44,924 nucleotides of DNA from Actinomycetales bacterium (GTDB taxonomy: Bacteria; Actinomycetota; Actinomycetes; Actinomycetales; Microbacteriaceae): assembly GCA_015654575.1 (NCBI GenBank), contig JAATGR010000084.1, positions 1-44,924 of the forward strand, given 5' to 3'. This document shows positions 910 to 6,361 of this stretch, piece by piece. The position numbers were made by a program, and so were the translations under genes. Below the pieces are notes generated by a model that was not told the origin of the DNA, did not search any database, and saw only the letters and a program-made list of their open reading frames with translations. Positions within the stretch are counted from its first letter, which is position 1. Each line of letters starts with the position of its first letter.

Positions 910-1941
910 TCAGAACAGGGTCGGCTGCTGGAGCGTCAGGGTGGGTGTTCCGCCGGTGAGGGGGCGGGCACGCGCCGGCCTCTCCTCCCCGCGGGTGAGG
1001 CCGTGGGACCGCGCGAGCGGTGCGACGCGTCGGGCGAGCCATCGCCGGTAATCCCTGCGCGCCGTGGCTGCGGCGCCCGGGTACAGCGCGGCGTATGAGG
1101 ACACCAGCTCGGGATGCTCGCGCGAGAGCCACTGCAGGAACCACTGCTTCGCTCCGGGGCGCAGGTGCAGCGCGCCGTGAACCACCCCGGCCGCACCCGC
1201 TTCGGCGATCTGTCGCAGCGCATCGTCGAGGGCCGCGACGGAGTCGGTGAGATGCGGGAGGACGGGCATCAGGAACACGGTCACGCGGAAGCCCGCCTCC
1301 GTTGCGGCGCGTACCGTCTGGAGTCGGCCCTGCGCGCTCGGGGTGCCCGGTTCGATCGAGCGCTGCAGCTCATCATCGAACACGGCGATCGACATCGCGA
1401 GCGAGACGTCGACGCGTTCACGCGCCCGCTGGAGCAGGGGAAGGTCACGGCGGAGCAGCGTCCCCTTCGTGAGGATCGAGAACGGCGTCTGAGACGACGC
1501 GAGCGCCTCGATGATCCCCGGCATGAGTCGGTAACGACCCTCGGCCCGCTGATAGGGGTCGGTGTTGGTCCCGAGCGCGACGTGCTCGTGGCTCCAGGAA
1601 TCGCGCCCCAGCTCGAGGGCGAGCACATCGGCGACGTTCGTCTTCACGACGATCTGCGAGTCGAAATCGCGCCCGGCATCGAGGTCGAGATAGGTGTGCG
1701 TCTGCCGCGCGAAGCAGTAGGCGCAGGCATGGGTGCAGCCGCGATAGGGGTTCACCGTCCAGTCGAAGGGCATCGCGGATGCCCCGGGAACCCGATTCAG
1801 CGCGGACTTGCACTACACCTCGTGGAACGTGACGCCGGCGAACTCGGGGGTCGTGACCGACCGGACGAGCCCATCCAGCCGTTCCAGCCCGGGCAGCGCG
1901 TCGGCGTCCACCGCTCCGATTCGCTGCCCGTTCCACCGCAT
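910..1941 (-). pseudogene. Rv2578c-family radical SAM protein, interrupted by an in-frame amber codon
   Basis: The intact part, 910-1773, gives 287 residues beginning MPFDWTVNPYRGC and holding the 4Fe-4S motif C-x3-C-x2-C (CTHACAYC), ALGTNTDPYQRAEG and ILTKGTLLRRD, as in mycobacterial Rv2578c-type radical SAM proteins. The same frame continues upstream without a shift through CKSALNRVPGASA to a TAG at 1813-1815, and beyond that through MRWNGQRIGA...TPEFAGVTFHEV to an ATG at 1941. In relatives as I recall them, the block reads FHEV-L-CKSALN, so one base change (TTG to TAG) splits an otherwise complete 343-residue gene. The rest shows no decay. It is either a recent nonsense mutation, a sequencing error, or a site read by suppression. 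The product of 910-1773 alone would keep the cluster-binding Cys but lose about 56 N-terminal residues. The substrate of this family is not known. Confidence 0.85.
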
Positions 1942-1945
1942 GGAA

Positions 1946-1976
1946 AGAGTAGAACAAAAAGACGACTGTGAGTCAA
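1946..1976 (-). promoter_or_regulatory. Candidate promoter of the radical SAM gene
   Basis: On the minus strand TTGACT (1971-1976) is followed 19 bases later by TACTCT (1946-1951), four bases before the ATG at 1941. A 17-base spacing to TCTACT is also possible. There is no Shine-Dalgarno sequence, so the transcript would be nearly leaderless. Confidence 0.45.
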
Positions 1977-3073: not shown

Positions 3074-3883
3074 TCAGCGGGGGAGGAAGACGACGAGCGC
3101 CGCCGCCGACACCGCCCAGGCGACCGCGACGAACACCACGTCGCGGGCGCGGAAAGGGACCAGATACCTCTCGGTGCGGTCTGGGTAGGCGCCGAAGGCC
3201 CGGGCGTCCATCGCGAGCGCGACGCGCTCCGCGTGGCGGATCGCGCCGGCCAGCAACGGCACGACGTAGCCGATCCAGCGGGTGATGCCGCGAAGCGGAC
3301 CGCGGCCGCTCCCCGATCCGCGCACCCGGTGCGCCTGCCGGATGACCTCCAGCTCATAGGCGAACCGGGGCACGAACCGGAACGCGGCGAGCGCCGTGTA
3401 GCCGATTCGGTATGGCACGCGCAGCTGCTGCACCAGCGAGCGGGCGAGGTCGGGTCCGGTCGTGCTCAGCCCCGCCACGAGGGCGAGCGCGATGATGGCA
3501 GCCAGCCGCAGAGCGGTCGCGTAGCCGGTCGCGAGGGCACCGGCGCGCAGCGTCCAGGCGCCGATCTCGAGCACCGCCGCCGTGCCGGCGACGCGCGACG
3601 GATCCGTCCACAGCGAGAACGTGAGGCCGATGACGGCCACCGCGACGGGGATCGCGAGGCCGAGCATCGCCGCCAGCCGCCGGGTGAAGCGCACCCCGAT
3701 CAGCAGCGTCGCATAGGCGAGCGCGACGAAGACCAGGGGCGTCCAGATATCACGGACCAGCACGAGCGCCACCGTCGCGGGGAGCACAGCCGCGAGCTTG
3801 GACAGCGGGTTCAGCCGGTACAGGAAGCGCAGCGCGCCGGCCGCGGGGGCCGGGGCGAACGGATCGGTCGCAGGCAGGGTCAT
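3074..3883 (-). CDS. Energy-coupling factor transporter transmembrane component (EcfT/YkoC-like)
   Basis: A 269-residue membrane protein with about five to six hydrophobic segments and a long cytoplasmic stretch containing the coupling helices. RFVPRFAYELEVIRQAHRVRG and the downstream block AERVALAMDARAFGAYPDRT match the two conserved Ala-Arg-Gly-type motifs by which EcfT docks on the ATPases. Its ATG overlaps the stop codon of the upstream ATPase gene by four bases (ATGA, 3880-3883), so translation is coupled and the proteins are made together. It should link ATP hydrolysis in the fused ATPase to toppling of the YkoE-like substrate-binding component encoded first in the operon. It is the last gene before hairpin copy A. 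Confidence 0.92.
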   Translation of the reverse strand: MTLPATDPFAPAPAAGALRFLYRLNPLSKLAAVLPATVALVLVRDIWTPLVFVALAYATLLIGVRFTRRLAAMLGLAIPVAVAVIGLTFSLWTDPSRVAGTAAVLEIGAWTLRAGALATGYATALRLAAIIALALVAGLSTTGPDLARSLVQQLRVPYRIGYTALAAFRFVPRFAYELEVIRQAHRVRGSGSGRGPLRGITRWIGYVVPLLAGAIRHAERVALAMDARAFGAYPDRTERYLVPFRARDVVFVAVAWAVSAAALVVFLPR

Positions 3884-5634
3884 GCGTCGCCGCCCGGCAG
3901 ATCGGCGAGCCGGGTGGCGCGGGCGAGCGCGGGATGCTGCGCCAGCCCAGACAGCGCTCGCCGCAGCGGCGGCAGCCGGAGTCCCGCTCGCTCGATCAGC
4001 GCGGCGTCGTCGAACACCTCGCCCGTCGTGCCGTCCGCAATGACCCGCCCGTCGGCCATCACGACGACGCGGTCGGCGTATTCGCTGACCAGCTGCATGT
4101 CGTGGGTGACGACGACCACGGTCACGCCCTCCGCGCGCAGCCCGGCGAGCAGCCGCAGCAGCTCGTCGGCCCGGGCGCGATCCTGTCCGAACGTGGGCTC
4201 GTCCAGCGCGAGCAGCGGGGCGCCGGCCACCAGCGCGGTGCCCACCGAGAGCCGTCGCTTCTGCCCGCCGGAGAGGAGGAACGGATGCTGCCCCGCCTTG
4301 TCCGCGAGTCCGAACCGATCCAGCAGGTCGTCGGCGCGGGCTCGCACGTCCTCTTCGCCGAGGCCCTGGCGGCGCAGCCCGTGCGCCGCCTCCTCGAACA
4401 CGGTGTGCGCGATGAACTGGTGTTCCGGGTTCTGGAACACGAATCCGACCATCCCCGGCAACTGGCCAGGATCCGCCCGGGCGACATCCTGGCCGCCGAT
4501 CCGCACCGTGCCGCGTGGCGGCTCGATGACGCCGGCGAGCGCGAGCAGCAGGCTCGACTTGCCGGCGCCGTTAGCACCCACGATCGCGGTGAACGAGCCC
4601 GCGGGAACGCTCAGCGACACGTCGTGCAGCACCTCGGTGCGGCCGCGTCGCAGCGTCAGTCCGGTGATGACGGCCGCCGGTTCGGCAGCCGGTCGCGGGT
4701 CGCGTTCGCTCGCGTCGGAACCCGCCGGTACCGGCGGGTGCTCGGCCAGCGCGTCGCGCAGATCGTCGGGGGTGAGCGGCAGCGGATCCAGCACGTAGCC
4801 GGCGCGCCGCAGTCGGAGAGCTGCCAGCGCCGAGGTCGGCAGCCACACGCCGAGCTCGTGCAGCTCTTCGGCGCGGTCGCGCAGCACCGACTCCGCCCGA
4901 CCGTCGGCGATCAGACGGCCGGCGGCATCGAGTACGATCACCCGGTCGACGAACCCGATCGCGGCGTCGAGATTGTGCTCGACCAGCACGATCGCGTGAT
5001 CGCCGGCGGCGACCAGATCCGCGAGGGCGCGGTAGACCTCCTCGATGCCGACCGGGTCGAGGTTCGCCGTCGGCTCGTCGAGTACGAGCAGGGGCGATCC
5101 CATCGCGAGCGCCGCAGCGATCGCGAGCCGCTGGCGTCCGCCGCCGGAGAGGACGTCGGGGTTCTCGTCCCGACGTTCCCAGAGTCCCACGCGTCGCAGC
5201 GCATGCTCGGTGCGGGCGAGCACCTCCGCCACCGGAAGCCGCAGGTTCTCGGGGCCGAACGCGACCTCGTCGAGCAGGGTGCCGGTCACCAGTTGTGCGT
5301 CCGGATCCTGGAAGACCATCGCGACGTGCGGACTCAGCTGCGCGACCGAGGCGGACGCGGTGTCCAGACCGCCCGCCTGGACGCTTCCGTGCAGTGTGGC
5401 CGGGACCGACTGCGGGATCAGCCCGTTGAGCGCGAGCGTCAGCGTGGACTTCCCCGAACCGCTCGGGCCGAGCACGAGGACGACCTCGCCGAGTCCGACC
5501 TCGAAGGACACGCCGGACGGCGTCGCCGCCTCAGCACCGTCGTGGGAGATGGACAGATCGGAGACGCGCAGCAGGGGGAGGGGGATGCCATCGGCGGACG
5601 CGGCGGCGTCGGGCGCGGAAGCGGGCACGGGCAT
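3880..5634 (-). CDS. ECF transporter ATPase with two fused ABC domains (YkoD-like)
   Basis: A 584-residue protein in which both energy-coupling ATPases (EcfA1 and EcfA2) are joined. Domain 1 has Walker A GPSGSGKST (about 56-64), signature VLSGGGRQRL and Walker B LLVLDEPTANLD. Domain 2 has GANGAGKSS (about 353-361), signature LLSGGQKRRL and LLALDEPTFGQD. In domain 1 the signature is SGGGR where SGGQ is usual, a mild asymmetry. The fusion is typical of the YkoEDC-type thiamine-precursor systems of Gram-positive bacteria. The ATG at 5634 lacks a good Shine-Dalgarno; AGAGGA lies about 20 bases upstream, so a slightly different start is possible. The 68-base gap to the S-component gene holds no clear terminator, so one transcript probably covers all three genes. 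Confidence 0.93.
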   Translation of the reverse strand: MPVPASAPDAAASADGIPLPLLRVSDLSISHDGAEAATPSGVSFEVGLGEVVLVLGPSGSGKSTLTLALNGLIPQSVPATLHGSVQAGGLDTASASVAQLSPHVAMVFQDPDAQLVTGTLLDEVAFGPENLRLPVAEVLARTEHALRRVGLWERRDENPDVLSGGGRQRLAIAAALAMGSPLLVLDEPTANLDPVGIEEVYRALADLVAAGDHAIVLVEHNLDAAIGFVDRVIVLDAAGRLIADGRAESVLRDRAEELHELGVWLPTSALAALRLRRAGYVLDPLPLTPDDLRDALAEHPPVPAGSDASERDPRPAAEPAAVITGLTLRRGRTEVLHDVSLSVPAGSFTAIVGANGAGKSSLLLALAGVIEPPRGTVRIGGQDVARADPGQLPGMVGFVFQNPEHQFIAHTVFEEAAHGLRRQGLGEEDVRARADDLLDRFGLADKAGQHPFLLSGGQKRRLSVGTALVAGAPLLALDEPTFGQDRARADELLRLLAGLRAEGVTVVVVTHDMQLVSEYADRVVVMADGRVIADGTTGEVFDDAALIERAGLRLPPLRRALSGLAQHPALARATRLADLPGGDA

Positions 5635-5702
5635 CCAGTCGAAGGGGAGCAGGTGTCCTCTAAATTAGTCGACCCTTATCGCCGGCGCGCCGAATCGCGC
5701 GG

Positions 5703-6251
5703 TCAGCGCCTGATCCGCGTGATGCCGGCGCGCGTGAGGCCGGTGCCGACTCCGAGCCCGACGGCGGTCCAGGCGACGGGGCCGACGATGAACAGCGCGA
5801 CGAAGAGGATCGCGGCCCATCCGCTCAGGCTTTCGGCGGCCAGGAACAGCCACATCGGCACGGCCAGCAGCACGCCGGTCGCCGCCGCGGAGAGGAAGAA
5901 CCGCCAGGGTTCCCAGTGCCGGTACCGGGTCAGGGCGGACACCCCCTCCTGCACGCCGCCGAAGAGCACGGCGACCATCAGGTAGCGACCCGCCATCGTC
6001 GGGACGAACGCGCACGCGACCAGCGCGGCGACGCCGTGCGTGATCAGCGCGACCCAGGGCAGGCGCAGCACCTGCTGGGCGATGACGCCCGGAAGTGCGT
6101 GGAAGCCGAGGACGAGGCCGTACAAGGGGAGGAGGCTGGTCGCCACGATGAGGTGCACCACGGTCCATCCCGCCGTGAGCAGGCCCATGGCCACTCCGAT
6201 GGCCGCGCAGGTCAGCAGGACACGTGTGGAGAGGGCGGCGGAACGGGGCAC
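5703..6251 (-). CDS. ECF transporter S component, YkoE-like (HMP/thiamine)
   Basis: A 182-residue integral membrane protein with about five to six hydrophobic segments. The block LLPLYGLVLGFHALPGV followed by LPWVALITHGVAALVACAF resembles the YkoE family (PF09819), the substrate-binding subunit for hydroxymethylpyrimidine or thiamine. The GTG at 6251 is preferred over longer in-frame starts because the minus strand reads TACGCT-GGAACC-GTG, a -10 box six bases before the start, the leaderless arrangement seen elsewhere here. It is the first gene of the operon with the fused ATPase and EcfT. I saw no TPP riboswitch (no CTGAGA plus ACC...GAACCTGAT elements) in the 110 bases upstream, and a leaderless mRNA could not carry one. 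Substrate is inferred from family only. Confidence 0.8.
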   Translation of the reverse strand: MPRSAALSTRVLLTCAAIGVAMGLLTAGWTVVHLIVATSLLPLYGLVLGFHALPGVIAQQVLRLPWVALITHGVAALVACAFVPTMAGRYLMVAVLFGGVQEGVSALTRYRHWEPWRFFLSAAATGVLLAVPMWLFLAAESLSGWAAILFVALFIVGPVAWTAVGLGVGTGLTRAGITRIRR

Positions 6252-6361
6252 GGTTCCAGCGTAACCGCCGCAACGGGCGCTGAACCCGGCTCGTCGGGAC
6301 ATCGGCCCACGGTGCGCGTCGGCGGGATGCCGAGTGCCCGGGGTGGGGCAGACTCGACAGG

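Follow-up and report, generated by a model that had tools for sequence, protein, structure and literature searches.

An in-frame amber codon in a gene that otherwise looks whole raises the question of whether the gene has been lost, wrongly called or kept in use by some unusual route. The gene considered here belongs to the window, as we call the whole stretch of 44,924 nucleotides analysed, which comes from a draft Microbacterium assembly (273 contigs, 82% complete, 2.9% contamination). On the minus strand, 1941-910 translates as MRWNGQRIGAVDADALPGLERLDGLVRSVTTPEFAGVTFHEV-stop-CKSALNRVPGASAMPFDWTVNPYRGCTHACAYCFAR...TLTLQQPTLF-stop, that is, as MRWNGQ...TFHEV-stop-CKSALNRVPGASAMPFDWT...QQPTLF, the first stop being a TAG (CTA on the plus strand) and the last a TGA at 912-910. 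The TAG (1815-1813) is codon 43 of 344, the terminal stop counted, and apart from it the gene reads as a 343-residue radical SAM protein of the Rv2578c family. An earlier note had described a TAG inside an otherwise intact radical SAM gene, and its coordinates, frame and family-like flanks all proved correct. The features of the locus are collected in Table 1.

Table 1. Features of the interrupted radical SAM gene and its upstream region (positions in the window).
Feature	Position	Strand	Description and basis
Rv2578c-family radical SAM gene (SplB-like fold)	910..1941	-	MRW start to TGA, with one TAG; frame, NF038135, Foldseek
In-frame amber TAG	1813..1815	-	Codon 43; variable column, directly following a predicted beta strand (residues 38-42)
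5' part	1816..1941	-	42 codons, family-like; would be the sole product of ordinary translation from the main start
Open frame from internal ATG (Met57)	910..1773	-	287 codons, CX3CX2C at residues 69-76; possible restart product
LexA (SOS) box-like site	1950..1965	-	TCGTCTTTTTGTTCTA; 24 bases before the start codon
-35-like TTGACT	1971..1976	-	Noted by eye next to the box, on its upstream side; TTGACA or TTGACT at this place in several orthologues

Membership of the family is clear on both sides of the stop. Read through, the frame scores 508.3 bits against NF038135, the model of the Rv2578c family (curated cut-off, 430 bits), over model positions 1-316 of 317, while the part from 1773 alone scores 437 bits with this model and 67 bits with PF04055. 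The iron-sulfur motif CX3CX2C is present as C69, C73 and C76, invariant among the 37 aligned sequences, and the 42 codons 5' of the TAG align to orthologues and contain no other stop. Like the members of the family found across Microbacterium, the window copy has the CX3CX2C motif, the start, the C terminus and the spacing of an SOS-box-like site; it differs from them by the TAG at codon 43, absent from the other members examined, and so it lacks an uninterrupted coding frame from the MRW start. It is thus an Rv2578c-family member by descent, interrupted as written. Many Microbacterium orthologues (L106; G009, G010, G011, G014, G017, G019, G047, G049, G050, G052, G053, G065, G070 and others) have an inserted segment close to the iron-sulfur cysteines, at about residue 18 of the query. 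It fits NF038136, the known form with an intein, and is lacking from the window copy.

Information about the likely role of the product was obtained from its predicted structure and from the region upstream of the gene. The model of the read-through protein, built with 37 sequences, has a mean pLDDT of 77.9 and a pTM of 0.78, and its best Foldseek matches among solved structures are spore photoproduct lyases (SplB; E 4e-07, TM about 0.51). Identity to these structures is only 16%, a search of PDB sequences found no relative of the radical SAM protein, and the likeness to SplB is one of predicted fold only. Of 94 distinct orthologous upstream regions, 75, that of the window included, have the pattern TCGN6TGTTC at a distance of 24 (23-25) bases from the start codon. 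The first half-site of the window box departs from the published tCGAAC-N4-GNNCGa (PMC9380542), and we treat it as a candidate site. The core LexA regulon of Gram-positive bacteria is reported to include a radical SAM protein (PMC7739468), and a link between SplB-like enzymes and SOS operons has been described (PMC3765255). The gene product is probably a LexA-controlled, SplB-like enzyme of the DNA-damage response, a role suggested by the predicted fold and the candidate LexA site.

Other elements of this neighbourhood deserve mention. A scan of the region for sigma-70 promoter or terminator consensus gave no match and did not list the TTGACT site, and no Rfam RNA was found near the gene. A near-perfect 22-base inverted repeat, AATGGGAACATATATTCCCATT, lies at 1981-2002, between the radical SAM gene and a divergent gene for a VanY-type carboxypeptidase; it was not seen upstream of any other orthologue, and may serve one of the flanking genes as an operator. 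Further along the window, a CbiQ-type permease, a double ABC ATPase and an ABC_cobalt-type permease are encoded at 3074-6302, and probably form an ECF transporter operon.

The TAG is a peculiarity of the window copy. At the codon-43 column none of 109 orthologous loci has a stop; these loci are mostly from Microbacterium, with some genomes fetched twice, and amount to 92 distinct sequences besides the window (107 loci were read automatically by pattern and two, L079 and L095, by eye). The earlier note had supposed that relatives have Leu at this place. Leu is indeed found in more than half of the 109 loci, but the column is variable, with Met, Ala, Gln, Thr, Val, Arg, His and Ile following, and the nearest relatives have other residues: a tree built from 93 distinct sequences places L048, with Thr (ACC), as the partner of the window, followed by L031, L003, L032 and L002, all with Ala (GCG or GCC). 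As judged from this alignment, codon 43 is a site that tolerates many residues. When the read-through protein was searched in 369 congeneric genomes, 353 gave a match, and among the matches listed none was another interrupted copy, the window copy alone having the stop. Ten of 343 good-quality congeners gave no match, which indicates that loss of the gene is tolerated. Within the window, 13 segments could be aligned to two related genomes and an internal stop occurs in the radical SAM segment alone, so that we do not regard the TAG as a chance occurrence.

Apart from the TAG, the gene has been well kept. Of the columns in which at least 97% of the other sequences agree, 135 in all, the window departs at one, which is typical, as 58 of 93 orthologues show no deviation at these columns and 24 show one. 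The C-terminal LF, invariant in the family alignment, is retained, as is the LexA-box-like site, and the view of the earlier note that there is no other decay holds, in that no other clear decay was detected. In comparison of the window gene with its nearest relatives, the 42 codons that precede the TAG have a pN of 0.09-0.19 and a pS of 0.4-0.8, and the part after Met57 has a pN of 0.16-0.21 and a pS of 0.5-0.65. Since pN is well under pS on both sides, both parts were kept for most of the branch, and consequently the TAG arose late on it or is not real. Private amino-acid changes are 32 in the window copy versus 14 in its relative G118 with G035 as outgroup (p=0.011), and 28 versus 17 with G054 (p=0.14). 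Neighbouring genes are near parity, the exception being the gene at about 12.7-14.8 kb, which gave 55 versus 30 in one of its two tests. The combined neighbour comparison with G035 is distorted by an ABC-transporter gene matching a paralogue in G118 (5 versus 97), and without that gene the neighbours give 145 versus 149; we used the single-gene test alone. Relaxed constraint is thus hinted at weakly at most by these counts, in a way that depends on the outgroup.

We think that a single-copy gene which the organism can do without has recently acquired an amber nonsense mutation, and we give this reading a probability of about 0.6. It would be an ordinary finding. Bacterial genomes hold nonsense-mutation pseudogenes, in which a dispensable gene is intact but for one premature stop; the window gene is like these, and if its base is real, nothing that we tested distinguishes it from them. 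Translation from the normal start would yield a 42-residue peptide, RF1 terminating at the TAG, and the working enzyme would be absent or made in very small amounts. That the base is real, the product lost and the loss recent is what we infer. The gene is single-copy in the draft, and a deletion disrupting Rv2578c has been reported in an outbreak strain of M. tuberculosis (PMC3031603), in line with the dispensability of an Rv2578c-type gene.

The main rival, ranked next after the nonsense mutation, is that the usual gene is intact and the TAG stems from an error in base calling or consensus, or from a minor strain variant or mixture, in a probably metagenomic draft. The earlier note had offered a fresh knock-out and an error among its possibilities, and both were right as the leading readings. 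The call rests on one base in one fragmented draft assembly of the species, and the incompleteness and contamination of that draft, together with a single substitution in a gene and promoter that show no other decay, speak for an error or variant. The contig shows no overall surplus of such errors, however, as the 12 other aligned segments are free of stops, and we consider this account possible but rather unlikely.

Two further routes would leave some working product, and both seem improbable to us. Translation could restart at the internal ATG at 1773 and give a working 287-residue protein with the iron-sulfur cysteines: this ATG is in frame, the frame that it opens exceeds the NF038135 cut-off, and in the model the barrel starts at about residue 61. 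The earlier note had raised such a restart; none of the 109 orthologues naturally starts at the equivalent MPFDW, and those checked have the upstream MRW start and the conserved N-terminal segment. A restart would drop residues 1-56, including the invariant P32, F34, H40, E41, V42, N49, V51, P52 and S55, and would remove a beta hairpin that is modelled with confidence (residues 38-50; mean pLDDT by block, 73-86). Moreover, by eye only a weak GGGG precedes this ATG, and the segment 5' of the TAG is as conserved as the rest, so that long-standing sole use of the inner start is unlikely. Still less credible is amber read-through or suppression giving the full-length protein, possibly as regulation, even though the frame has long been kept on both sides of the TAG and most residues would be tolerated in such a variable column. 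The draft encodes RF1, the reader of UAG (L155; PAT motif present), and part of RF2 at a contig end. Of the 45 tRNA genes found in it, none has a CUA anticodon, though its incompleteness may hide one. The 45th of these is a weak match (C172), unseen by ARAGORN, with by eye the anticodon CAT and not CTA. Given RF1 and the lack of a UAG-reading tRNA among those found, amber suppression, which the earlier note had raised, is unlikely; as for programmed read-through, conservation of the stop is absent both from the 109 loci and from the congeneric matches listed. The draft also has two different tRNA-Gln genes with the anticodon TTG (contigs C178 and C96; L137 and L139) and one with CTG; the two TTG genes are possibly normal or possibly a trace of assembly contamination. 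It is very doubtful that read-through at a useful rate, or use of the inner ATG, makes this a functional allele that supplies a reduced or shortened SOS-controlled repair enzyme.

In summary, a recent nonsense mutation remains our preferred reading. By itself it is a minor event, the single-base disruption of a gene that is absent from some congeners. If reads confirm the base, it would serve, on a small scale, as a natural knock-out in which to study the part played by the Rv2578c radical SAM protein in the DNA-damage response.
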